The notes below the pieces were generated by a model that saw only the letters and a program-made list of their open reading frames with translations, made no database searches and was not told the origin of the DNA. A stretch of DNA of 63,371 nt, taken from positions 1-63,371 of the forward strand of contig LVBW01000004.1 of assembly GCA_001604585.1 (NCBI GenBank). Direction: 5' to 3'. The DNA comes from Puniceicoccales bacterium Verruco_02 (GTDB lineage Bacteria; Verrucomicrobiota; Verrucomicrobiia; Opitutales; Oceanipulchritudinaceae). Both the position numbers and the translations under genes were made by a program. This document shows, piece by piece, positions 32,154-62,338 of this stretch. The stretch's first letter is position 1, and every line of letters starts with the position of its first letter.

Positions 32154-35100
32154 ATGAGATATCCCGCACGCTTCACAAGCAGGGCTCTTATTCTCGGTTC
32201 CACGCTGCTTTGCGCGTCCCAGATGACCGCACAAGACGCAGCAACAGCCGACGAAGACATCGTTTACCTCAGCCCATTCGAGGTAACATCTGAAGGCACC
32301 CTGGGTTATTCAACCACACAAACGCTCGCAGGCACGCGCCTGCGCACCGACCTTCGCGACCTGGCCAACTCGATCAGCGTCGTCAACAGCGAGTTCCTCA
32401 AGGACACCGGCGCCACCAGCTCGCAGGACCTGCTCGTTTACACCGCAAACACGGAAGTGGGCGGCGTTTACGGCAACTTCTCCGGCGCAGGCGGCAGCTC
32501 CACCTACAACGAAAACACCAAGCTGATTCGTCCCAGCGAGAACACCCGCGTACGCGGCCTAGACTCTGCCGACAACACCCGCGACTACTTCCTGACGGAA
32601 GCCCCGTGGGACAGCTACAATGTCGAGCGCGTCGAACTTCAACGCGGCCCCAACTCCATCCTCTTCGGTGTGGGTAGCCCCGCCGGTATCATCAACGCCG
32701 GCACCAAGGGTGCGGTGTTCAAGGATCAGGGCAGCATCGAAGCGCGCATCGGCAGCTACGGCTCGGTCCGCGGCAGCATCGACGTAAACCGCGAGATCAT
32801 CGACGACGTTCTCTCCGTGCGCGTCATCGGCCTCTACAAGGACACCAAGTACCAGCAGCAGCCGGCCTACGAGCAGGACGACCGCGTGTATCTGGCCCTG
32901 CGCTTCGAGCCGAAACTGTTCGGAAAGAACGCCAACACATCGATTCGCGCCAACTTCGAACAGGGCGACATCGAGGCCAACCGCCCTCGCTCCCTGCCCC
33001 CGATCGACGCCATCACGCCTTGGTTCCAGACTGGCACATCCAACGGATATGCCAACCTGAACAAGCTGACGCTCAACCCGAACATCACTTGGGACCAGTA
33101 TGGCAACTACAATGGCGTGACCGACCAGATGTATCCTTGGTTCCGCGAAGCGTTCCTTGGCCGCATCATGAGCTCCAATCCCGCGACGTTCTATGACGCC
33201 AACGGGGCCACAGCTCCCGTCTCGATGATGGGCATGATCGGAACGAGCAAGGGCCGCAGCGACACCGGCCTTCAGGACGGCACCATCGGCGGCATCGAGT
33301 TCTCCCGCCTCTGGGGTATTGCCACCTACAACAATTACGCACGCGGCGCCATTCAGGGCGGCCAGTACTACTCGAACTACTCCATCTCCGACTCCAGCAT
33401 CTTCGACTTTTACAACAAGTTGATGGACGGAGACAACAAGAAGGAGTGGCAGAAATGGAAGACGGGCAACTTCTCGCTCGCCCAGACCTTCCTCAGCAAC
33501 CGTGTAGGCTTCGAACTGTCGCACTTCTTCCAGAACTACGAAGAAGGCCAGTACGGCTTCCTCAACGGCGACCAGTATGCCATCTCGGTGGACATCAACA
33601 CCCACCTTTCCGACGGCACCATCAACCCGAACTGCGGCCGTGCCTACGTTGCCAACAGCGGCTACTACGGAAACTCGGAGAACTACGTCACCCGCCACAG
33701 CTCCCGCGCCACAGCGTTTGCCGACCTGCGCTCGACGGACTTCCTCGAAGAGTCCTGGCTGACCCGCATCCTCGGTCACCACCTCTTCTCGGCTCTCGCC
33801 GCCAAGGACATCCGCAAGAACGACTACCGCACCTTCGCACGTTGGGCCTACGACACAGACTACACCGACGCAACCGGTGGTGATGCCAAGCTTACGGGCG
33901 GTCTGCGCACCTACGACTGGGTCGCCTACATCGGCCCCGACATGCGTGGCTCCTCCTACACGAGCGCCTCTGGCCTGAACCTCTCGAACGTCACTACGAC
34001 GATCAACCCGAGCGGTACAGCCAGCGTCAAGTACTTCGACTCGACATGGAATGCCGGTAACATCTACGGCGATCCCTACACCTACTACACCTACGACCGC
34101 AACGGCGAGCTTGAGGAAACCGTAGGCACGCAGTCTGACAATCCGGCCAACTATGTTGGTTGGACTACCAAGACCTTCAACATCCTCAGTGCTGAGAATG
34201 GGGATCTCGAAGACCTGTACACTGGCATAACCAAGTCCCGCAACCGCATCATGTCGACGGGACTGACACTCCAGAGCTACATGTTCGACGAGAACGTCGT
34301 GTTCACCTACGGCTGGCGCAAGGACAAGGTCCAGACCCTCAGCCGTCAGGCAAGCAAGAACAGCCTCGACGTGGCCAACCCGAACTTCTCGCCCACACTG
34401 GACGATGCCAACACCAACGCAAACTATGCCGAAGGTCAGAGCCGCACATGGGGTGTTGTGGTCCACACGCCTGACTTCATCAGCCGCAACCTGCCCGCCG
34501 GCCTCAAGATCTCGGCATTCTACGGCTCGGGTCAGAACTTCAAGGCTGACGCCCCCCGTGGCGACGTGTTCGGCAACCAGATCGACAATCCTGAGGGCAA
34601 GACCAAGGACTACGGTTTCATAGTCTCCGCCCTGGACAACCGCATCTCGCTGAAGACCACCTGGTATGAAACCAAGGTGAAGAACGCCTCCCTTGGCGCC
34701 GACAGCGCAGGCTTCTCCGGCAGCCTCTACTATGTATGGGCAATACCCTACTGGGGCGCAACACACGCTCTGGCCGCTCTGGACGGTATCTCCGATCCTC
34801 AGCTTCGTCAGGGTAACTGGGGCTGGCCCTGGAACGGGATTGCCACACACGTCGTTGACGGCGAGGAAGTTCCGGACACTACCCGTATCTATGAAATCGT
34901 GCAGGACTTCTTCAAGAACTTCCCGCTCGACCAGAACTTCGCAGACGAGTACGGCCTTGGCCTGAATGTCGCTGCGATGAAGTCCGCCAGCACCCCCGCC
35001 CAGTACTACGCCTCCGTGCCGACCTACGGTCTTCTGAACGGCGTGTATAACACAGCGGAAGGTTCCGGTGCCAGCGGCCTAGGCCTACAGCCCGCCTATG

Positions 35101-35783
35101 CCGGCTCCCTCAAGAGCTTCGGCTCTGCTCCCGTTGCCAGTGTCGACACCACCTCCAAGGGTGTTGAGCTTGAACTGACCGCCCGCATACTCGACAACTG
35201 GAACGTCATGCTGAACGTCTCCAAGACCGAGGCTTCGCGCACGGCCATCAGCCCGACAATCGACGCCTGGATCGAAACCTACACCAAGTTCCTCGACGGC
35301 GATGCTGGTCTTCTCAAGCTCTGGGGCGGCGACACATTCCGCACCAACTGGAAGAACAACGTCCTCGGGCCCTACTCGGTGCTCAAGGCCCAGATCGGCA
35401 GCACGGCTCCCGAAGTGGCCCCCTGGCGCTTCAACGTGATCACCAACTACTCCTTCAACGAAGGCAAGCTCAAGGGAGCATTCGTCGGAGCAGCATATCG
35501 TTGGGAAGACAAGCGCGTCCTTGGTTACGAGTATGATTCGACCACGGACTCGCTCGACATCAACAAGCCTTGGTATGGCGACACGGACGATCATATCGAC
35601 CTCTGGGTCGGTTACTCCCGCAAGATCAGCGAAAAGGTGAACTGGCGCGTGCAGCTCAACCTCCGCAACGTCGGAGAGAGCGCAAGCCTAGTACCGGTGA
35701 CCATGAACCCCGATGGTAGCGTGGCTCTGTCCCGCATATCCGAAGGGATGACCTGGTTCCTCACCAACACGTTCGAGTTCTAA
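32154..35783 (+). CDS. TonB-dependent outer membrane receptor
   Basis: At 1209 aa this is a large TonB-dependent transporter. A signal peptide (about residues 1-27, ending MTAQ) is followed by the short N-terminal segment VYLSPFEVTSEG, a motif frequent in Opitutae receptors that probably includes the TonB box. The plug domain has TRLRTDLRDLANSISVVNSEFLKDTGATSSQDLL and RVRGLDSADNTRDYFL, then VERVELQRGPNSILFGVGSPAGIIN, the classic plug signature. The rest is a 22-strand barrel ending in an aromatic residue (TWFLTNTFEF). The substrate is unknown, but a XylR-like regulator on one side and a sugar symporter on the other suggest an oligosaccharide. A strong terminator follows. Confidence 0.95.
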   Translation: MRYPARFTSRALILGSTLLCASQMTAQDAATADEDIVYLSPFEVTSEGTLGYSTTQTLAGTRLRTDLRDLANSISVVNSEFLKDTGATSSQDLLVYTANTEVGGVYGNFSGAGGSSTYNENTKLIRPSENTRVRGLDSADNTRDYFLTEAPWDSYNVERVELQRGPNSILFGVGSPAGIINAGTKGAVFKDQGSIEARIGSYGSVRGSIDVNREIIDDVLSVRVIGLYKDTKYQQQPAYEQDDRVYLALRFEPKLFGKNANTSIRANFEQGDIEANRPRSLPPIDAITPWFQTGTSNGYANLNKLTLNPNITWDQYGNYNGVTDQMYPWFREAFLGRIMSSNPATFYDANGATAPVSMMGMIGTSKGRSDTGLQDGTIGGIEFSRLWGIATYNNYARGAIQGGQYYSNYSISDSSIFDFYNKLMDGDNKKEWQKWKTGNFSLAQTFLSNRVGFELSHFFQNYEEGQYGFLNGDQYAISVDINTHLSDGTINPNCGRAYVANSGYYGNSENYVTRHSSRATAFADLRSTDFLEESWLTRILGHHLFSALAAKDIRKNDYRTFARWAYDTDYTDATGGDAKLTGGLRTYDWVAYIGPDMRGSSYTSASGLNLSNVTTTINPSGTASVKYFDSTWNAGNIYGDPYTYYTYDRNGELEETVGTQSDNPANYVGWTTKTFNILSAENGDLEDLYTGITKSRNRIMSTGLTLQSYMFDENVVFTYGWRKDKVQTLSRQASKNSLDVANPNFSPTLDDANTNANYAEGQSRTWGVVVHTPDFISRNLPAGLKISAFYGSGQNFKADAPRGDVFGNQIDNPEGKTKDYGFIVSALDNRISLKTTWYETKVKNASLGADSAGFSGSLYYVWAIPYWGATHALAALDGISDPQLRQGNWGWPWNGIATHVVDGEEVPDTTRIYEIVQDFFKNFPLDQNFADEYGLGLNVAAMKSASTPAQYYASVPTYGLLNGVYNTAEGSGASGLGLQPAYAGSLKSFGSAPVASVDTTSKGVELELTARILDNWNVMLNVSKTEASRTAISPTIDAWIETYTKFLDGDAGLLKLWGGDTFRTNWKNNVLGPYSVLKAQIGSTAPEVAPWRFNVITNYSFNEGKLKGAFVGAAYRWEDKRVLGYEYDSTTDSLDINKPWYGDTDDHIDLWVGYSRKISEKVNWRVQLNLRNVGESASLVPVTMNPDGSVALSRISEGMTWFLTNTFEF

Positions 35784-43315: not shown

Positions 43316-43531
43316 CCGGTCTCGCATTCCCGGCCTTTGCATTGAATGTCCCCAATCGAGGCCAGAAGCCTCAAAATCCAGCAGAAATCACATCTGATTC
43401 TCCTTGCTCGCCATGATAAGCTCCACACCCTCAGAATTCAATTTCCTATCAGTCAAGGGCGTATGAGCTCGCTGCGCTCTGTTATCCCTCACCCTTCTCA
43501 CAGACTGCCCTCAAGCTTGCCAAGGAAACCA
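43316..43531. other. Upstream region of the toxin gene and of lysA
   Basis: This 216-nt gap must hold the promoters of the divergent toxin gene and, in part, of lysA. The frame of the toxin gene is open from an ATG at 43346, but the added 62 residues are not protein-like. AAGGAAACC directly before ATG 43532 fixes the start. Confidence 0.5.
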
Positions 43532-44128
43532 ATGAATAGACTGCTCCTCTTACTCATCTCTCTCCTGCTACCAGTCGTCAGTCCGCTTTATGGGTCGCCG
43601 GACGAATTGCCGACCCTTCGTCCAGCAGCGCAAATCATTATGGATGGCGTCAGCGTGCTCCTTCCCCGCATCTATGACCCGCAGTCGGGCCGTTTCCTCA
43701 GCGCTGACCCTATCGTCCAGCAGCCTGAAAATCTCCAGGCATATAACCGATACTCATACGTCCTAAACAACCCGCTTACTCATGTGAACTATGACGGCTA
43801 CCAAGCCACCGGAACGATGTCCATAACTGCTGCCGCGATTTATGGCGCTTCTCGCAGTACAATGACCGTTTCTCTTACATTCGAACAAGCGGTAAGCCTC
43901 AGGGCTGGCCTCACTGCCGCTTTGCCCGCAGGTGCCGCAATGAACGGATTAGAGGCGAGGACACACGCTGAACTCGCTAGAAGCGCGGAGTACCTTGGTA
44001 AACTCGTAGATGAGGGTCACATAACTCTGGATCAAGCCAAGGATATACAAGCAAAGGTCGCAGGAGAGCTTGATTCACTGAAGGGAATGCGATGTATCCC
44101 CGCAGCTTGGCTGCAGCGCGTATCATAA
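43532..44128 (+). CDS. Secreted RHS-core protein, N-terminal part of a toxin
   Basis: A 198-residue protein with a signal peptide ([21 protein letters not shown]) and then the RHS-associated core: [17 protein letters not shown], then [15 protein letters not shown], and VNYDGYQ in place of the usual DPSGY. The long YD-repeat shell of full RHS proteins is absent, so this is a mini or remnant form. An Ala-rich helical region follows and the frame closes with TAA at 44126-44128. The next frame overlaps it by 37 nt and carries the toxin-like tail. Whether the two make one protein by frameshift or two by re-initiation is open. Base composition is AT-richer than the surroundings. Confidence 0.85.
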
Positions 44129-50071: not shown

Positions 50072-52195
50072 ATGTTTGAACCCATATCCATGCCCGGAAT
50101 GATGGCGCAGGTTGACCAGACCGACCTGCGCTCCCTTGTCGATTGCAGTTACAGCATAGGGACCGACGCCACACTGGAAGAGGCACACAGGACATTCCAG
50201 CGCCACGGGCACGAGTTCATGGCTGTGCTGGACGGGGAACGACTCCTTGGCATCTGCTCGCGCAGCGGCATAGGAATGGTGCTCGGCTCGCGCTTCGGCT
50301 TTTCCATCTTCTCGAAAAAACCCATCGGCGAGCACATGCTCCCCTCGCCCGTCATAATAAAGGTGGGCACCCCCCTGCGCGGAGTTCTGGACACGGTATT
50401 CTCCCGCGCGAGCGACGAATTCTACGACGACATCGCACTAATCGACAGCCGGGGCCTCTTTGCGGGACTCATACAGGTGCACTCGCTTGTAAAGCTCCAG
50501 CACCGCATGTTGCTCGAAAAGCTCAAGCAGGTGGAGATGCAGGAGCGCAACCTGCGCAGCGCCAACCACCAACTGGAGCGCATGGCCGCAGAGGTCAGCG
50601 CGGCGAACGCAGAACTGGCCAAGGCAAGGGACATGGCCCTAGAGGGCACGCGAATGAAGAGCGAGTTTCTCGCCAACATGAGCCACGAAATCCGCACGCC
50701 CATGAACGGGGTGATCGGCATGGTGAACCTGCTCATGGAGACCCCGCTCAACCCCGAGCAGGTAATGTTCGCCAAGACGCTCCGCAGTAGCGGAGAGGCG
50801 CTTCTGGACATCATTAACGACATTCTCGACTTTTCCAAGATAGAGGCAGGCAAGCTTGAGGTAAGTAACCACGAGTTCGACATCCGCGAGGTGCTCGAAA
50901 GCAGCGTCCACCTGCTCGTGGAGCGCGCGGCGGCCAAAGGGCTGGAACTAATCTGGGACATTGATCACGATGTGCCAGCCAAGGCCCTCGGAGACTCCAC
51001 ACGCATACGCCAGATAGTGGTGAACCTGGTGGGCAATGCCGTGAAGTTCACCGCCGAGGGCGAGGTCATCGTATCAGCCTCGTTCTCAGATCTGGACAAG
51101 ATCCTGCGCGTCGAAGTACGCGACAGCGGGCCGGGAATATCCGAGCATGTGATGGCAAAGCTCTTTGCCCCGTTCACACAGGCGGACGGCTCCACAACGC
51201 GCAAGCACGGAGGCACGGGCCTTGGTCTTTCCATATCCAAACGCCTTGCCGAACTGATGGGAGGGCGCATCGGTTGCACGAGCGAACTGGGGCGCGGCTC
51301 CACGTTCTGGTTCGAGGTGCCACTAGCGGAAATCGAGGGTTCTGGCAAGGGACGGGACTACGACTTTGGCGCCCAGAGGCTGCTTGTAATCGAGCCAAAC
51401 CAATCTCTGCGCAAAGTACTTATGCGCCACCTTTCGGGCTTCAACCTAGCCTGCAAGGCCTGTGCGAACCTCGAAGAAGCGCGCGCGCACATGGAAACTG
51501 CTCTCGCTGCGGAAGAGCCGTTCCAGTATCTGCTTCTGGACCTATCGGGCACAGGCGGAGAACTTGGCCCCTTCTGCAACGCACTGCGAGAAGACAATCG
51601 CTTTAGCGGACTCGGCATAGTGGGTATGACTAGCGTCGGACACGCCGCACAGAGCCTCATAAACGAGCGCGACCTTATTACGCGCCACATTTACAAGCCC
51701 ATTCGCTTTGTGGACCTTTGCGCCTGCATTGAGGGCATGTCGCGCAGCGGACTGGGACGGGAAGGGGTTCATGTACATACCCCGGAGCGCGAGCTTGCCC
51801 CGTCCGCCCGCCCGCTTCAGGTGCTGATAGTGGAGGACACGCAGACAAATCAGGTCGTTGCCCGCATGATGGTCGAAAAGTTGGGACACAGGTGCGTAGT
51901 GGCCTCGAACGGGCTTGAAGCTCTGGAACTTCTCCGCAGGCAGCACTTTGACTGCATACTTATGGACTGCATGATGCCGGAAATGGACGGCTTTGAAACC
52001 ACACGGCGCATCCGCTCCGGCTTCTGCGGCGAGGGACAGCAGGACATACACATCATCGCCATGACGGCCAACGCCATGCGTGGGGACCGCGAACGCTGCA
52101 TAGAGTCCGGCATGGACGAGTACATATCCAAACCCATACGCAGGCCCGAGCTGATAGCCCGGCTTGAGAACGCACAGCGTCAGCTCTACGCATAG
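50072..52195 (+). CDS. CBS-domain hybrid histidine kinase with two receivers
   Basis: The 707-aa cytosolic kinase has two CBS-like motifs (about 20-140: [20 protein letters not shown] and [21 protein letters not shown]), a coiled coil (143-195), HisKA with the phospho-accepting His205 ([11 protein letters not shown]), and HATPase_c ([40 protein letters not shown]). Two receivers follow. The first ([15 protein letters not shown]...LLLDLSG) lacks the acidic pair and is probably a pseudo-receiver. The second is complete ([34 protein letters not shown]). CBS pairs bind adenine nucleotides, so the sensed signal may be energy state. There are no membrane spans. Confidence 0.93.
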
Positions 52196-52343: not shown

Positions 52344-54527
52344 ATGAACAGCAAGAGTCCCCAATCAGCCTACAAGTGGCGCTTCTTTCGCGCCGGAGGC
52401 GTTGACCAGATACTCATACAGAACGGCGCGGACATCGCGCGACTGCCAGAGCTGGACCTGAAGCTGTGGTTTGCCCTAGCCATGCCCTGCGAAGGGGTGG
52501 AGGCAGACCCGGTCCTATTGGCAATGCTGGACAGCGACAAGGACGGACGCATCCGCCCGCCCGAAATAGCCGCCGCCGCGAGCTGGGCCGACTCTGCCTT
52601 CGTGGACCTGAACGACCTCTTCAGCCCTGCCGACTCCATAGCAATATCGCGAATAAAGGATGCTGAAATACGCGCCAGCGCTCGGCAGGTGCTCGACTCT
52701 CTGGGCAAGACCGAGGCAAAAGACATATCTCTATCCGACCTTGGCAGCGTGTACAAGGGCCTTGCCAGCACCCTTTTGAACGGCGACGGAGTGATACCGC
52801 CAGACGAGGCTCTGGAGCCGGAGACAAGGCAGGCCGTGGCCGACATACTATCCTGCATGGGCGGAGTGCCCGACCGCAGCTCGAAACTGGGCATAGACAG
52901 CGACATACTGGACCGCTTTTTCTCGCAGGCGGCGGCCCTTGTGGCATGGATGGACCTTGGAAGAGCAAATGCGCACAGCCTACTGCCCGCCGGGGAAGGC
53001 ACAGCCGATGCCCTCGCTGCACTCAACGCCGTACGAGCCAAAGTGGACGACTTTTTTGCAAGGGTAAGGCTGGCGGACTTTGACCCCCGCGCGCTGGAGG
53101 CGCTGAACCGCAGCGAGAGCGAGTATCTCGCCCTTGCGGCTAAAGACATGACTATCGAGGCCGCCGAACTGGCCGCCTTCCCTCTGGCTCTGGTGAAGCC
53201 CGGGGCCTCGCTACCGCTCGAAAAGGGCCTAAACCCGGCATGGGAAGGCGCGATAGCGAGCTTTATAGACAAGACAATCGAGCCATTGATCGGCAGTGCC
53301 GGCCGCCTGTCCTCGGCAGACTGGGAAGGGCTGAAGTCCGCTCTTGAGCCGTTCCAGAAGTGGCAGGCCGCCAAGCCCGCCACAAGCGTGGGGGCATTGG
53401 GCGAGACCCGGCTGCGCGAGCTTCTAGGAAGCGGGCAAAAGGCGCGCATAGCCACCCTAATGGCCGAGGACGCCGCGCTTAAGCCGCGCTTTGACAGGCT
53501 GGACGCGGTGGAAAAGCTCCTGCGTATGCGCATGGGCTTTGTGCGCCTGCTCAACAATTACGTGAACTTTGCAGAGTTTTACCAGACCCGCAGCTCCATC
53601 TTTCTCGCAGGCGATTTGTATTTGGACGCGCGCGCCTGCCACCTTTGCCTAGATGTGGCGGATGCCGGGCGGCACGCCGCACTGGCAGGCCTATCGGGCA
53701 TATACCTCGCCTACTGCGACCTCAGACGCGAAGGCGGGCAGAAACGCAGCATCGTGGCCGCCTTTACAGACGGCGATGCGGACAACCTCATGCCGGGGCG
53801 CAACGGCGTGTTCTTCGACCGCAAGGGGCGGGACTGGGACGCGAGCATCACGAAAATCGTCAGTAACCCCATAAGCATACGCGAGGCGTTCTGGAGTCCC
53901 TACAAGAAGCTTCAGCGCACGATTGAGGAGATGATAGCCAAGCGCGCGGCGGGGGCCGAGGCCGGGGCAAGCGACAAGCTGACAAACTTGGCGGCAAGCG
54001 CCGTAAACCTAGACAAGGCAAAACCGGACGCCATTCCAAAGAAGATAGACGTTGGCACTGTGGCGGCAATGGGCGTGGCTCTTGGCGCGATAGGCGCGGG
54101 GCTATCCGCATTGGCAACGGGGCTTATGGGGCTTGCGTGGTGGCAGATTCCGCTGGTCTTTGTGGGCCTGGTCCTGCTCATTTCGCTCCCGTCCATGATT
54201 CTTGCATGGATGAAGCTGAAGCGGCGCAACATTGCACCACTGCTGGACGCCAACGGCTGGGCCGTGAACACAAGGGCGAGGATAAACACGCCCTTCGGCG
54301 CGGCGATGACGGACAGGGCAAAGGTCTCAGCAAGAGTATCCGGCTCTGTTAAGGATCCCTTTGCCGAAAGGCGCACACGCTGGCCCTTTGTCGTGGCACT
54401 CCTTCTTGTAGTGGCGGCCTGCCTTTGGACATTGGACCGCAGGGGCAGCCTTAACCGCTGGAGCGGCGGCCTCATAGGCACGGCTGCGCAGAGTGTGGAG
54501 TGCCCAGCCAGAGATACAGCGCAGTAG
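52344..54527 (+). CDS. EF-hand membrane protein of unknown function
   Basis: A 727-aa protein I do not recognise as a family. A canonical EF-hand loop DSDKDGRIRPPE lies at 63-74 (Asp1, Asp3, Asp5, Gly6, Ile8, Glu12), and LNGDGVIPPDE some 110 residues on is a weaker second site. A long helical, Ala/Leu/Glu-rich middle has no cysteine clusters. The segment FTDGDADNLMPGRNGVFFDRKGRDWDASI comes before a C-terminal membrane part with spans at about 600-635 (AAMGVALGAIGAGLSAL...), 643-660 and a last one near 690-708 (WPFVVALLLVVAACLW). It has no signal peptide, so the EF-hand is cytosolic unless export is unusual. It lies between two kinase genes, all on the plus strand. Confidence 0.82.
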   Translation: MNSKSPQSAYKWRFFRAGGVDQILIQNGADIARLPELDLKLWFALAMPCEGVEADPVLLAMLDSDKDGRIRPPEIAAAASWADSAFVDLNDLFSPADSIAISRIKDAEIRASARQVLDSLGKTEAKDISLSDLGSVYKGLASTLLNGDGVIPPDEALEPETRQAVADILSCMGGVPDRSSKLGIDSDILDRFFSQAAALVAWMDLGRANAHSLLPAGEGTADALAALNAVRAKVDDFFARVRLADFDPRALEALNRSESEYLALAAKDMTIEAAELAAFPLALVKPGASLPLEKGLNPAWEGAIASFIDKTIEPLIGSAGRLSSADWEGLKSALEPFQKWQAAKPATSVGALGETRLRELLGSGQKARIATLMAEDAALKPRFDRLDAVEKLLRMRMGFVRLLNNYVNFAEFYQTRSSIFLAGDLYLDARACHLCLDVADAGRHAALAGLSGIYLAYCDLRREGGQKRSIVAAFTDGDADNLMPGRNGVFFDRKGRDWDASITKIVSNPISIREAFWSPYKKLQRTIEEMIAKRAAGAEAGASDKLTNLAASAVNLDKAKPDAIPKKIDVGTVAAMGVALGAIGAGLSALATGLMGLAWWQIPLVFVGLVLLISLPSMILAWMKLKRRNIAPLLDANGWAVNTRARINTPFGAAMTDRAKVSARVSGSVKDPFAERRTRWPFVVALLLVVAACLWTLDRRGSLNRWSGGLIGTAAQSVECPARDTAQ

Positions 54528-54637: not shown

Positions 54638-56356
54638 ATGGACAAGGCCCACCCGCATGGCAGGACAAGCCCGGCAGTCACTCAGGCGCTATACAATATC
54701 AGCCGCCTGCCCGGCACCTGTGCGGACGGTCGGGAGGCCCTGAACATAATACTGGACCAGATACTGGCCGTACTGCCAGCCACAAGCGGCAGCATCAACC
54801 TGATTAACCCCGACTCGCGAATGCTGGAGCTGGAAGTGCTGCGCGGGATGCCCGAACGCTCCAAGCAGCTTCAGCTAAGCCTTGGCGAAGGAGTAACAGG
54901 CTGGGTGGCCCTACACGGCAGGCCCATGCTGGTGCCCGACGTTACGCAGGACATTCACTACGTGCCTGTGTCCGCAAGGGTGCGGAGCGAAATGGCGGCA
55001 CCGATGGCGGACCGCGGGGCGGTGGTGGGAGTAATCAACCTTGATAGCGACGTTAAGGAAGCCTTCGACGAAAAAGACCTCGAAACGCTGGCCCTCTTGA
55101 GCAACGAGGCCGCCCGCGCCATGAGCCTTATCTGGCACATGGACCTGATGCAGATAAAATCCCGCCAGCTCGAATCGCTCGTCAATGCCTCGCGCGAACT
55201 GGTGGGCCATCTGGACATGTCCAGCCTGCTTGCGCAGATTACGAACGTGGCCCTGACGCTGGGCAACTTCCGCCTCGCGGCCCTGTTCCTGTACGACCCG
55301 GCCACTCAGCGCCTCTCGATGGAAACCATCGCGGGCATTCGCAACATAGGCAGTTACAGCGAAACCCTGCTGCTGGAGGAAAGCGCCATAGGCACAGCCA
55401 TCCGCCGTCGCAAACAGGTGGAAGTGCCCGACCTGCCCCGAAGCGAGGAGCACCACTTTGTTGATGTCGTTTACAGCGAGGGCCTAGTCTCCATGCTGGC
55501 TACGCCCCTGATGTTCGAGGACAAGGTGCTGGGCGTTCTCAACATTTATACGGACAGAAGGCACCGCTTCAGTAACGACGAGCGCAACCTCATGGCCGCG
55601 CTCTGCGGGATTAGCGCCCTTTCCATAATCAACGCCCGCCTGTACGACCGCGTCTTCCGCACCGAGGACACACTGCGTCGCAACGACCGCCTGACAACGC
55701 TCGGACTACTCTCGGCCGAGATAGCGCACGAGATACGCAACCCCCTCACCGTCATAAAGCTGCTCTTTGGCAGCATGAATCTGGAATTTGCCAGCGACGA
55801 CATGCGCTGCCGCGACGTGGAGATAATCGCCGAAAAGCTCGACCAGCTCGAAGGCATCGTAACGCGCGTCCTCAGCTTTGGCAAAAACAGCGAGGGCCTG
55901 CACTCGCACTGGGATCTAGTCCGCATAGTGGACGACACCCTGCACCTTGTGCGCCTCAAGCTGCGCCAAAGCGGCATACGGCTGGACTTCAGCCATCCGG
56001 GCCGCCCGCTGAGGGTGGAGGCCAGCAAGGGTCAGCTCCAGCAGGCCGTGCTGAACATTGTGATGAACGCCGTTCAGGCCATGCCCGAGGGCGGAGCGCT
56101 GGAGCTGGGCATACAGGTGGAGAGCGGCCCAGAGGGCGATGTTGGCGTAATCCGCGTTCACGACACGGGCCGAGGCATACCAGAGGAGATACGAAGCCGC
56201 ATTTTCGACTCCTTCCTCACTGGCAAGGCAACGGGAACGGGTCTTGGCCTGAACATCTCCAAGCGCATCCTGAAAAGCCACAACGGCGATATTGAGGTGG
56301 AAAAAAGCAGCCCGGAAGGAACTGTGGTGAAGCTGTGGCTACCGCTCGCAAGATGA
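54638..56356 (+). CDS. GAF-GAF sensor histidine kinase
   Basis: The 572-aa kinase has two GAF domains (about 15-165 and 180-330: SLGEGVTGWVALHGRPMLVPDV, AAPMADRGAVVGVINLDSD, then LLLEESAIGTAIRRRKQVEV, GVLNIYTDRRHRFSNDE). A HisKA region follows with LSAEIAHEIRNPLTVIK (His near 365), then HATPase_c with QAVLNIVMNAVQAMPEGG, HDTGRGIPEE, and TGTGLGLNISKRILKSHNGDI. The NtrB/AtoS-like type fits a two-component sensor of small ligands or redox. There are no membrane spans. The nearest response regulator is on the opposite strand at 56.9-58.1 kb and is a natural candidate partner. Confidence 0.94.
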   Translation: MDKAHPHGRTSPAVTQALYNISRLPGTCADGREALNIILDQILAVLPATSGSINLINPDSRMLELEVLRGMPERSKQLQLSLGEGVTGWVALHGRPMLVPDVTQDIHYVPVSARVRSEMAAPMADRGAVVGVINLDSDVKEAFDEKDLETLALLSNEAARAMSLIWHMDLMQIKSRQLESLVNASRELVGHLDMSSLLAQITNVALTLGNFRLAALFLYDPATQRLSMETIAGIRNIGSYSETLLLEESAIGTAIRRRKQVEVPDLPRSEEHHFVDVVYSEGLVSMLATPLMFEDKVLGVLNIYTDRRHRFSNDERNLMAALCGISALSIINARLYDRVFRTEDTLRRNDRLTTLGLLSAEIAHEIRNPLTVIKLLFGSMNLEFASDDMRCRDVEIIAEKLDQLEGIVTRVLSFGKNSEGLHSHWDLVRIVDDTLHLVRLKLRQSGIRLDFSHPGRPLRVEASKGQLQQAVLNIVMNAVQAMPEGGALELGIQVESGPEGDVGVIRVHDTGRGIPEEIRSRIFDSFLTGKATGTGLGLNISKRILKSHNGDIEVEKSSPEGTVVKLWLPLAR

Positions 56357-56958: not shown

Positions 56959-58131
56959 TCAAAGCCCGGTCCGCGAGGGAGCGGAGAGCGCCTCGCCAAC
57001 CACGCTGCGCAACTCACCACGACTGAAGGGTTTGCGCAGCATCGCATCGAAACCATAACGGGCGTGATCGCGCATGACAGGATCGTTCCATGCCCCGCTC
57101 ATAACGATGGCCCTTATGCCTGGGCATATGGCGCGAAGGGAGCTTAGCAGCTCCGCCCCTCCTCCCGAGCCGGGCACCGAGAGGTCCAGAATCACAAGGC
57201 CAAAGGGGTTTCCATCCTGCATCGCGTTGCGGAAAAGGCGCAGTGCCTCCTCGTCGCTCACGGCAACATCCACGCTGTGGCCGGACTTGTCGAGCAGGCG
57301 GCGAATGCTGCGCGAGACCACCTCGTAATCCTCCAGCACCAGAACGCGGACGGGCCGCGGCTCTGCAAGCGACGCCTGACAATCTGGCACAGCCGTCCCG
57401 GCCTCTTCGCGAAGGCCCGAACTCTCGGCCACAAAAAACACTCTCCTGCCAGTCCAGGGGCCGTCAATAAGGCGGAGCTGACGCACGCGCACGGGCAGCT
57501 GTCCGCGTTCCCGGCACCGTATGCTGACAAGCTGGGGGGATCCGTCCGCCCCGGTCACTATGTCCAGCCCCGGCATCAGATCCTGCACCGGGCGACCACC
57601 TGCGCGCCAGACGCAGTCAAAGGCGCTTGCAAAGGCATCGTTCATCAGGAGCACCTCGCCATCGTCAGAGCAGAGCAGCGCCGCTTCCGGCAAAGAGCGA
57701 AAAAGGGCCGAATCCGCCCCCTCGTCCCCACCAGTCCACAAAGGCCCGCCAAGGTCACGATTGCGTATGTCGCGGCGGATCCTTCGCGCCAGTATGCCAA
57801 GATGAACGGGGCTTACGAGGTAGTCATTGGCCCCGCTGTCGAAGGCGCGGTGTATGGCAGAGTCCTCGTCGTTGTCCGAATAGATGTAAACAGGCAGCCC
57901 TCCAGCACCGGGCATCTTGCGAATGCTTGAGCACATTTCCTCCACCCCGGCCCCGACAAGGCCCGAAGATAGCAGAACAGCGTCCGGCGCAGTCGTGCGG
58001 CAAAGGTCCATCAGCTCCTGAGAACTGGCAGCCTGCGCATACTCGAAGGCGCCTCCAAGCCCCATGCACAGGCTTTCCCGAAGGAAGCGGTCGCTCTCGG
58101 CCACGATGAGTCTGGGGATGCTCCGGTGCAT
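56959..58131 (-). CDS. Response regulator: pseudo-receiver, PAS, receiver
   Basis: A 390-aa protein with three parts. The first receiver-like domain (about 5-125: RLIVAESDRFLRESL, DAVLLSSGLVGAG, GANDYLVSPVHL) lacks the phospho-acceptor Asp and the Lys, so it is likely not phosphorylated. A PAS domain (about 145-240) contains LPEAALLCSDDGEVLLMNDAF. The last receiver (about 258-380) is complete: VLVLEDYEVVSRS, LVILDLSVPGSGG, AIVMSGAWND, MLRKPFSRGEL. There is no DNA-binding or enzymatic output. It may relay phosphate or act by binding. Its partner could be the GAF kinase next door or another kinase. Confidence 0.9.
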   Translation of the reverse strand: MHRSIPRLIVAESDRFLRESLCMGLGGAFEYAQAASSQELMDLCRTTAPDAVLLSSGLVGAGVEEMCSSIRKMPGAGGLPVYIYSDNDEDSAIHRAFDSGANDYLVSPVHLGILARRIRRDIRNRDLGGPLWTGGDEGADSALFRSLPEAALLCSDDGEVLLMNDAFASAFDCVWRAGGRPVQDLMPGLDIVTGADGSPQLVSIRCRERGQLPVRVRQLRLIDGPWTGRRVFFVAESSGLREEAGTAVPDCQASLAEPRPVRVLVLEDYEVVSRSIRRLLDKSGHSVDVAVSDEEALRLFRNAMQDGNPFGLVILDLSVPGSGGGAELLSSLRAICPGIRAIVMSGAWNDPVMRDHARYGFDAMLRKPFSRGELRSVVGEALSAPSRTGL

Positions 58132-60021: not shown

Positions 60022-60304
60022 ATCCAAACAGGAAACACCCGCAAGGGCGCACGCTCAAGATTGAAAACTACCCTCTGTCATAAGATAGCACCCCAATGAG
60101 AAACTTCAAAATGCGGAAAACAATCATCAAGCAGATGTAAAACAGCGCACTCTGTGCTACTGTCCCTGACCAACGCTGCAACAATCCCCTTGCCTTGCGC
60201 CTCTTCAATAATTGCGCATACTGGCGTATAAATCCAAGGGAGCGTTTCTTCCAACAACACGCGTATTCGCGCCTCGTCCTGAGATAAGCACATACATACG
60301 AAAA
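60022..60304. other. Divergent gap between panB and cheR
   Basis: A 283-nt gap with promoters in both directions expected. No clear -35/-10 pair and no stable hairpin were found. A minus-strand frame of 71 codons (60078-60293) is open here but has no Shine-Dalgarno. Confidence 0.5.
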
Positions 60305-61198
60305 ATGAGTCCTTTCCCCTTCAGCTCACAGGATAGAAACGGCAGCCCCTTCTCCAGCCCGGCTCCGATAACGGCCGCCGAATACGAATTCATCCGCCAG
60401 ATAGTTTACGAGCACAGCCGCATCAACCTCGGCCCCAGCAAGAAGGAACTGGTAATGGCGCGCTTGTCCAAGCGCCTTCGCGCACTGAACCTTAACGGCT
60501 ATTCGGACTACATAAACATGCTGCGCACCCCGGCGGGCAAGGACGAGATGACCAACCTCATCGACTCCATCTCGACCAACCACACCTACTTTTTCCGCGA
60601 GCCGCAACACTTCGACTTTCTTACGCAAGTGGTGCTTCCCCAGTTCTGCGAACAGGACGGGGCCAAGCGTGGGGCGACAAGCGGCACCTTCAAGGTATGG
60701 AGCGCGGCCACTTCGAGCGGCGAGGAGCCGTACACCATCTCGCTACTGCTGGACGACTACTTTTCACGCATACGCGGCTGGAACTGGAACATACTCTGCA
60801 CCGATATTTCCACACGCGTGCTGGCCAAGGCCCAGGAGGGCATATTCTCCAAGGACCGCCTAGGCCCCGTTCGCCCCGACTGGCTTCAACGCTACTTCGA
60901 CAAGGGAGTTGGCGAGAGCGAAGGCTTCTACCGGGTCAAGCCCGAGCTTAGGCGCAACCTCAGCTTCCGCGCCCTGAACCTATTGGCTCCTAGCTACCCC
61001 TTCCGCGACAGCTTTCAGGTGGTGTTCCTGCGCAACGTGATGATATATTTCGACCGCGAGACTCAGGAAGAACTGGTCAACAAGATTTACCCCCTCATCC
61101 AGCCCGGCGGCTACCTCATAATCGGCCACGCCGAGAGCCTTACCAACGTCAAGCACCCCTTCAAGCTGGTCAAACCCTCCATCTACCGCAAGGCATAG
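60305..61198 (+). CDS. cheR: CheR-type chemoreceptor methyltransferase
   Basis: The 297-aa protein has a CheR N-terminal helical domain (AEYEFIRQIVYEHSRINLGPSKKELVMARLSKRLRAL) and a SAM-dependent catalytic domain: FFREPQHFDFL, KVWSAATSSGEEPYTISLLLDDY, LCTDISTRVLAKAQEGIFS, and VVFLRNVMIYFDRETQEEL with IIGHAESL near the end. It methylates glutamates on chemoreceptors. There is no TPR or pentapeptide-binding tail. ATG 60305 begins the real protein. cheB follows after 12 nt. No chemoreceptor, CheA or CheW gene is in the window. Confidence 0.95.
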   Translation: MSPFPFSSQDRNGSPFSSPAPITAAEYEFIRQIVYEHSRINLGPSKKELVMARLSKRLRALNLNGYSDYINMLRTPAGKDEMTNLIDSISTNHTYFFREPQHFDFLTQVVLPQFCEQDGAKRGATSGTFKVWSAATSSGEEPYTISLLLDDYFSRIRGWNWNILCTDISTRVLAKAQEGIFSKDRLGPVRPDWLQRYFDKGVGESEGFYRVKPELRRNLSFRALNLLAPSYPFRDSFQVVFLRNVMIYFDRETQEELVNKIYPLIQPGGYLIIGHAESLTNVKHPFKLVKPSIYRKA

Positions 61199-61210
61199 AC
61201 AGGCAACGCG

Positions 61211-62338
61211 ATGGCCAACGACAAAATCAAGGTTCTCATTGTTGACGACTCGCTTGTGGTGAGGCGGATGCTCTCGCGCATACTCAGCGAAGACCCTATG
61301 ATAGAGGTAGTGGGCACTGCGGAAGACCCCTACGACGCCGAGGGCAAGATTCTCCAGCTTAACCCGGATGTGCTGACCTTGGACATTGAAATGCCCAAGA
61401 TGGACGGGCTGACCTTCCTGAAAATCCTCATGGAAAAGCGGCCGATGCCCGTCATCGTCATGAGTTCGCTTAGCCAGGGAGGCTCCACTTACGCAATGGA
61501 TGCCCTTCAGTACGGCGCGGTCGAGGTGCTGGCAAAGCCTTACGGCCCGTACTCTGTGGGCAACGTTGGCGCACAGCTCGTGGACAAGGTGAAGGCCGCA
61601 GCAGCCTCGCGAAAGAGAATAGGCATACTTAAGCGCAGCTTCGCAAGCGCCAGCGCCGCCCAGCGCCAAGCATCTGCGCCGCCGCCTGCGCCCATCCCCG
61701 GAGCGCCGGTGCCAGTTGCAGCCCCGCCTCCGCCCGCGCCAGCGCCCGTACGCTTCCACTCTCGTCAGTTGATAGCCCTCGGGGCCTCCACCGGCGGCAC
61801 AGAGGCGCTGAAGGAAGTGCTCGTGGCCCTGCCTGCGGACATGCCGCCCATAGTCGTGGTTCAGCACATACCGCCCTACTTTTCCAAAGCCTTTGCGGAC
61901 CGCCTCAACGGCCTCTGCGCCCTGTCCGTAAAGGAGGCCGAGGAGGGCGACCTTGCCCGGCCAGGCACGGTCCTCGTTGCCCCCGGAGACTTCCACATGG
62001 TCGTTCACTGGGGAACGCAGGGCTATCAGGTATCGCTCAAGAAGGGGCCACAGGTCTGGCATCAGCGCCCCGCAGTGGACATCCTTTTCAAGACTGCCGC
62101 AGAGGCCGCTGGCAAGTACTGCATAGGCGCCCTCTTTACTGGCATGGGACGCGACGGAGCCGAGGGCCTGCTCGCCATCAAGAACAAGGGCGCGATGACC
62201 TACGCTCAGGACGAGGCTTCCTGCGTGGTCTATGGTATGCCAAAGGCCGCTGTTGAACTGGGGGCAGCGCAAAAAGTGGCCCCACTGGACAAAATAGCCG
62301 GCCTATTGCGCGAGAGTGCCATCGCTGGCAAGCTCTGA
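61211..62338 (+). CDS. cheB: Chemotaxis protein-glutamate methylesterase CheB
   Basis: The 375-aa response regulator-esterase. The receiver has KVLIVDDSLVVRRML with Asp58 in VLTLDIEMPKMDG, MSSLSQGG and Lys in VEVLAKPYGPYS. A Pro/Ala-rich linker of about 40 residues separates it from the CheB esterase: Ser in LGASTGGTEAL, His in VVQHIPPYFSKAFADRLN and Asp in TGMGRDGAEGLLAIK make the catalytic triad. Phosphorylation relieves inhibition of receptor demethylation. Together with CheR it sets adaptation. The linker is longer than in enteric CheB. It ends 140 nt before the next kinase. Confidence 0.96.
   Translation: MANDKIKVLIVDDSLVVRRMLSRILSEDPMIEVVGTAEDPYDAEGKILQLNPDVLTLDIEMPKMDGLTFLKILMEKRPMPVIVMSSLSQGGSTYAMDALQYGAVEVLAKPYGPYSVGNVGAQLVDKVKAAAASRKRIGILKRSFASASAAQRQASAPPPAPIPGAPVPVAAPPPPAPAPVRFHSRQLIALGASTGGTEALKEVLVALPADMPPIVVVQHIPPYFSKAFADRLNGLCALSVKEAEEGDLARPGTVLVAPGDFHMVVHWGTQGYQVSLKKGPQVWHQRPAVDILFKTAAEAAGKYCIGALFTGMGRDGAEGLLAIKNKGAMTYAQDEASCVVYGMPKAAVELGAAQKVAPLDKIAGLLRESAIAGKL

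Follow-up and report, generated by a model that had tools for sequence, protein, structure and literature searches.

To our knowledge, a role has been established for few bacterial EF-hand proteins. The nearest functional comparison that we found for the protein analyzed here is EfhP (PA4107) of Pseudomonas aeruginosa, which is described as having two EF hands, a predicted periplasmic location, and a Kd for Ca2+ of 13.7 µM (PMC9132961); this comparison is by description. Among the putative beta-barrel families of the outer membrane, one list includes DUF481 (PF04338; TCDB 1.B.75) (PMC4827864). Here, we analyze an EF-hand-type protein encoded in the window, i.e., the whole stretch of 63,371 nucleotides of DNA under study, together with its homologs in other genomes. 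The window protein and EfhP resemble each other in being bacterial EF-hand proteins outside the plain cytosol; however, the two EF hands and the predicted periplasmic location of EfhP contrast with the one canonical loop and the predicted cytoplasmic EF-hand domain of the window protein, and a beta domain and a membrane hairpin are features of the window protein by which it differs from EfhP. With calmodulin-like proteins (2aao, calcineurin B, NCS-1, polcalcin), the window protein shares profile similarity over the loop at residues 63-74 and over an NGDG loop, together with weak structural agreement; unlike these proteins, it has a single canonical loop and carries its EF-hand domain within a larger membrane protein. 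DUF481 is a recurrent neighbor and, in one case, the fusion partner of the family, yet it is a separate family. We propose, with a probability of about 0.45, that the window protein is an inner-membrane protein that responds to Ca2+ (or another divalent metal) and functions at the envelope alongside a DUF481 barrel of the outer membrane. We see here EF-hand chemistry of a known kind in a family of envelope proteins that is unnamed, has a recurrent partner, and differs from EfhP in location and architecture.

The window is an entire contig of a genome of 2.70 Mb in 101 contigs with 23 HisKA matches. The open reading frame as mechanically called begins 54 bases upstream of position 52344, at a GTG; the ATG at 52344 agrees with the start sites chosen in homologs and is used in Table 1. 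Structures were predicted for the whole protein and for its N-terminal domain. The original prediction, made from the DNA alone, described a perfect EF-hand loop, a long helical part, and C-terminal membrane spans. The helical part and the spans are indeed present in the model and in the hydropathy profile; however, the conserved beta domain at about residues 420-510 had been overlooked.

Table 1. Coordinates of the EF-hand gene, the parts of its product, and the flanking genes in the window.
Feature	Residues	Coordinates	Strand	Basis and remarks
EF-hand inner-membrane protein gene		52344..54527	+	727 aa, stop codon included; open reading frame and homologs
N-terminal EF-hand-type domain	1-214	52344..52985	+	Model, pLDDT 90.2; profile match to CDPK EF-hand chain
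Canonical 12-residue EF loop, DSDKDGRIRPPE	63-74	52530..52565	+	Sequence and alignment
Second EF-like loop, NGDG motif	144-155	52773..52808	+	First ligand position non-acidic; alignment
EF-like loop, DRSS..GI	177-188	52872..52907	+	Alignment; strand 182-184 then helix in model
Helical domain	212-415	52977..53588	+	Predicted model
Beta domain	420-510	53601..53873	+	Model; mean column identity 75%
Membrane helix 1	573-591	54060..54116	+	Model and hydropathy
Membrane helix 2	602-620	54147..54203	+	Model and hydropathy
Conserved basic segment, consensus KLRxRNLGPILDANGWAVN..., predicted cytoplasmic	623-678	54210..54377	+	Charge count, alignment
Membrane helix 3	680-698	54381..54437	+	Model and hydropathy
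Flanking CBS-HisKA-HATPase-receiver hybrid histidine kinase		50072..52195	+	Domain matches; judged outside the system
Flanking GAF-GAF-HisKA-HATPase histidine kinase		54638..56356	+	Domain matches; judged outside the system

Elsewhere in the window, the frame at 43346-44128 contains a translated stretch that we take to resemble the RHS core motif; this frame has no match in Pfam. The frame at 32154-35783 encodes 1209 aa and includes a TonB-dependent receptor plug domain; its opposite strand contains a 763-aa open frame (32559-34850) that is probably a by-product of base composition.

The original prediction also held that the family could not be named. Consistently, the window protein exceeds the cut-off of no Pfam or NCBIfam model: in Pfam it has no match at an E value of 1, including to kinase, receiver, phosphotransfer, or DUF481 (PF04338) domains, and in NCBIfam it has only sub-threshold matches. 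The best of the latter, to the XopAW calcium-binding effector (NF041410), covers residues 58-113 including the EF loop (E 0.0076); with 16.1 bits against a cut-off of 120, membership in the XopAW family was rejected. Homologs were found in 28 of 89 genomes, comprising the genome of the window and its relatives. Across the phylum, a profile of the beta domain detected the family in 152 of 288 sampled genomes, and nearly all of the positive genomes listed carry one family match. In named genomes, at least 581 of 591 candidate stretches were confirmed as members, and the best 80 were kept. By record title, these best 80 of at least 581 homologs are mostly from Verrucomicrobia; the other titles name Planctomycetes, Gemmatimonadetes, Lentisphaerae, myxobacteria, and other Deltaproteobacteria, as well as Nitrosomonas, Gallionella, Thauera, and Allochromatium. 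Many of these 80 records are metagenome bins, the titles of which may be wrong. An unannotated fragment of the family, corresponding to residues 331-479 of the query with 46% identity, is present on the conjugative plasmid pBY3 of Aeromonas salmonicida (locus L246, NZ_CP060033.1, 1679-2128), near a tet(Y) gene.

The EF loop was analyzed in an alignment (A2) of 80 proteins comprising the window protein and 79 of the 80 homologs from named genomes; the remaining locus, L052, is not represented, as gene calling gave no single focal gene there. Among the 79 ungapped rows, D occupies position 1 of the loop in 79, position 3 in 77, and position 5 in 78; position 6 is G in 74, and position 12 is E in 77 and D in two. 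The canonical pattern (D/N at positions 1, 3, and 5; G at 6; a hydrophobic residue at 8; E/D at 12) fits 72 of these rows, including that of the window protein, and fails in seven; one more row is truncated. Based on this alignment, the perfect loop that had originally been noted is canonical at residues 63-74 beyond what chance would give. A lack of conservation in homologs, which the original prediction had named as grounds against the idea, is not seen in the close family; however, among 30 further loci, 20 of which were chosen from lower in the phylum-wide list of profile matches, several distant members have a broken loop (e.g., L143, L145, L154, and L155), and metal binding is therefore not essential for the whole family. 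The distant members L142-L155 retain the C-terminal half, although several of them have a broken loop. Two further EF-like loops of the N-terminal domain are conserved as well. The NGDG motif at residues 146-149 is almost invariant (N146 in 80 of 80 rows, D148 in 78, and G149 in 80), and in the DRSS..GI loop, D177 is found in 78 of 80 rows and G183 in all 80.

Several comparisons point to an EF-hand-type N-terminal domain. In both predicted models, helices at residues 56-62 and 72-85 form a helix-loop-helix around the canonical loop. Searching PDB sequences with a profile of residues 1-214 (A5, 79 rows) returned the CDPK regulatory domain 2aao as the best match, with a whole-chain E value of 9.9e-5. 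This score sums three EF repeats, of which the best single one reaches 11.1 bits (E 1.8); the match thus supports EF-hand character rather than constituting one strong match. Polcalcins followed at E values of 0.0064 and 0.013, one of them across the NGDG region. A Pfam scan of 23 family members detected EF-hand_7 in two and EF-hand_5 in two, with best E values of 0.00019 and 0.0017, while the window protein alone matched no Pfam EF-hand model at an E value of 1. With the model of the N-terminal domain, EF-hand proteins dominate the best 50 Foldseek matches listed, including calcineurin B, NCS-1, ALG-2, calmodulin, and troponin C, each of them weak (best E 0.24). VIA-align 2 gave weak superpositions of residues 145-214 on calmodulin 21-93 (Z 4.1, rmsd 3.6, 62 residues) and of residues 97-143 on calmodulin 25-78 (Z 3.5, rmsd 2.8, 43 residues). 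From the profile, the loop, and the model together, we read the N-terminal domain as EF-hand-type, in which one loop is canonical and several others are degenerate.

It is also possible, although somewhat unlikely in our estimation, that the loop is structural, i.e., that a permanently bound metal would stabilize a scaffold or a channel-like envelope protein and that the protein is no sensor. Such a role would fit with the presence of one canonical loop beside EF-like loops that lack ligands, and with the distant members that have lost the loop and retain the rest. It would also fit with the finding that the beta domain (A6) is the most conserved among the three parts measured, with a mean column identity of 75% compared with 62% for the hairpin and basic segment (A7) and 59% for the EF-hand domain (A5). 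Nothing specific speaks against a structural loop: near-invariant loop ligands, as seen in the close family, would be as fitting for a structural site as for a sensor.

The whole-protein model (pLDDT 88.6, pTM 0.74) consists of helices up to residue 413 and the beta domain, here at about 423-506, followed by a long helix at 512-554 and C-terminal helices at 570-596, 601-626, and 680-699. Using this model, Foldseek found no match at an E value of 0.001 or better, a result that does not show a new fold, and the best VIA-align 2 match (Z 4.7, rmsd 3.4) covers 50 residues of the long helix at 510-559. The profile of the beta domain has only scattered matches in Pfam (best E 0.013), and a PHROGs search returned nothing better than an E value of 0.039. 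Structurally, the beta domain has weak tudor-like matches with Z scores of 2.9 to 3.4, several with an rmsd of 2.6 to 3.0 over 49 to 53 residues; we do not claim a tudor-like identity.

Basic segments of membrane proteins stay on the cytoplasmic side according to the positive-inside rule. In the segment at residues 624-679, K+R exceeds D+E in 79 of 80 aligned rows. Because this basic segment follows membrane helix 2, the rule predicts a cytoplasmic location for the segment itself and for the soluble N-terminal three quarters of the protein, which comprise the EF-hand-type, helical, and beta domains, and a periplasmic location for the C-terminal tail. No hydropathy peak was found at the N terminus; all three peaks lie elsewhere. 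A periplasmic sensor of the EfhP type was considered and rejected based on the lack of this N-terminal peak and on the basic segment, which puts the N terminus inside.

The gene lies on one strand between the CBS hybrid kinase and the GAF kinase, as originally described and as the domain matches and coordinates agree, with intergenic gaps of 148 and 110 bases, respectively. This arrangement would make co-transcription of the three genes possible, and the original prediction raised the possibility that the EF-hand protein links calcium to two-component signaling, here the histidine kinases on either side. The linkage, whose absence elsewhere the original prediction had named as grounds against the idea, is however not conserved. 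We surveyed 99 loci, at 98 of which exactly one focal gene was called. In a phmmer comparison, none of the 182 called immediate neighbors at these 98 other loci matched the catalytic domains of either window kinase, and none of the 84 loci with both neighbors called had a kinase on either side; of the 1029 ORFs called in the 99 loci, 12 were kinase genes. This survey used a crude codon-based gene caller and a narrow query of two kinases, and the 182 neighbors keep duplicates (L053 and L112 are one locus, and L050 is a near-duplicate). Using six-frame ORFs and an HMM built from the earlier hits, a kinase catalytic domain was found within 2.5 kb at eight of 185 deduplicated loci, twice on the same strand. 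The 650 HATPase matches in about 102 Mb from 29 genomes of the phylum predict roughly 3% of loci by background; the observed 4% is not far from this value, with the reservation that the two percentages are not the same measure, since HATPase_c includes non-kinases and some loci have short flanks. Similarly, neither HisKA nor HATPase is among the best 25 of 224 Pfam families listed for 135 of the 137 neighbors of at least 100 aa, where the 25th family has three members.

The same-genus relatives agree with this result. A tblastn search of the loci with both whole kinases gave 52 matches, of which those to the GAF kinase and those in the same genus were inspected. In G002, neither kinase matched in the 16.9 kb around the gene, in a contig that ends 1.7 kb downstream of it, and the closest kinase detected in G001 lies four genes from the EF-hand gene. 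Neither relative has a called kinase gene flanking the EF-hand gene, and the three genes, which the original prediction had asked about as a travelling group, occur together in neither. In G002 (locus L111, 9258-15245), the EF-hand gene adjoins, divergently, what is presumably a pheS-pheT pair, and the same presumed pair sits 5' of the hybrid kinase in the window. The G002 locus lacks the hybrid kinase, and a rearrangement distinguishes it from the window. The kinase neighbors in the window are also less surprising given that the region is rich in signaling genes: further signaling genes near the EF-hand gene, at 56962-58131 (-) and 60212-62338 (+), include one for a protein with receiver domains and frames that presumably encode CheR and CheB, which they resemble by translation. 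Neither domain content nor conserved linkage supports the EF-hand protein as a component of two-component signaling, and we consider coupling to the flanking kinases very unlikely.

The commonest neighbor family is instead DUF481, which accounts for nine of the 135 neighbors in the Pfam scan. The other recurrent neighbors (helix-hairpin-helix, lysine aminomutase-like, HhH-GPD, UvrC, and LplA), each with three to seven of the 135, may reflect shared gene order in close relatives. For the set of loci gathered before DUF481 was noticed (L031-L110, with the near-duplicate L050 removed), 10 of 79 loci have DUF481 within 1.5 kb, nine of them on the same strand, and both gene orders occur. The figure becomes 10 of 53 if 26 loci that are unlinked and have short flanks are omitted while linked loci are kept whatever their flanks. 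By their labels, the ten linked records belong to Verrucomicrobiota (six), Myxococcota (three), and Lentisphaerota (one). A chance estimate indicates that even five DUF481 copies in a 2-Mb genome would place one within 1.5 kb in about 1% of loci. Over all loci, a local HMM built from a cluster of nine neighbor proteins found DUF481 within 1.5 kb in 19 of 185; this is not an unbiased rate, as L160-L168 were chosen because both genes shared a contig, and seven of the 19 (L160, L161, L162, and L164-L167) were fetched in this way. PF04338 was confirmed in all eight of the DUF481 proteins tested. In the 19 linked loci, DUF481 is upstream on the same strand in 10, downstream on the same strand in seven, upstream on the other strand in one, and fused in one. 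At L168, the DUF481 gene is 3.3 kb away on the other strand. Some same-strand gaps are short (27 bases in L051, 18 in L063, and 38 or an overlap in L156) and others long (244 bases in L041, 306 in L099, and 1108 in L038). In the genome G363, the aligned stretches of both families are about 25 bases apart. On a FastTree phylogeny of 176 rows, the linkage requires at least 15 changes of state by parsimony, computed without shuffles and with gain and loss indistinguishable.

The association is facultative in its genomic distribution. DUF481 occurs in 155 of the 288 genomes of the phylum, with one to five matches each among the matches listed, and genomes with one family only occur both ways, so the EF-hand family and DUF481 are not mutually required. 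Neither of the two DUF481 genes in the genome of the window is on the contig of the EF-hand gene (they lie on C10 and C53); any pairing in this genome is therefore not by gene order, and the DUF481 partner would be encoded elsewhere than beside the EF-hand gene. YdiY is annotated as salt-induced. Our search of open-licence articles in PMC, by title and the start of the abstract, found no literature on the EF-hand family or its pairing with DUF481. With 43 of the 53 blind-set loci with usable flanks being unlinked to DUF481, it could also be that the protein acts alone as a gated inner-membrane pore or transporter, in which case the vicinity of DUF481 would reflect the shared expression of envelope genes. 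Membrane helix 1, which is often rich in glycine and alanine, and the conserved proline in membrane helix 2 would suit a pore. However, DUF481 is the commonest neighbor, is found in both orders and mostly on the same strand, and is fused once, and we regard a lone pore as unlikely.

The fusion was found in contig C8 of the genome G342, where both families are encoded in one open frame of 930 aa (L160:2257-5046, minus strand), with the EF-hand family match at residues 14-712 and the DUF481 match at 713-922. The barrel follows directly after a hydrophobic stretch at the position of the third membrane helix. Because an outer-membrane barrel must be exported, the fusion agrees with a periplasmic C terminus. 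The other 30 genomes of the same order contain no such fusion; G342 is the sole genome of its family among those examined. The fusion is known from one draft genome of 130 contigs, and an assembly error could still account for it.

Altogether, the anatomy seen in the models, the conservation of the loop, the topology signals, the gene linkage, and the one fused frame are computed observations, from which we infer metal binding, physical contact with the barrel, the direction of signaling, and the physiological role. According to our model of a metal-responsive inner-membrane protein acting with DUF481, a metal at the loop at residues 63-74 would change how the EF-hand domain packs against the helical and beta domains, and the effect would pass via the membrane hairpin and the third helix to the periplasm and then to the barrel. 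In its most specific form, the protein would be a trans-envelope device in which the cytoplasmic EF-hand domain reads free Ca2+ and, via the hairpin and the periplasmic tail, opens, closes, or recruits the barrel; we consider this form doubtful and quite unlikely. If it were true, it would constitute an unnamed route from calcium in the bacterial cytoplasm to control of the outer membrane. More generally, with a recurrent partner and a natural fusion, what was a single unknown protein becomes a pair that can be tested, and the EF-hand family becomes a candidate regulator for DUF481, which by its Pfam name is a family of unknown function.
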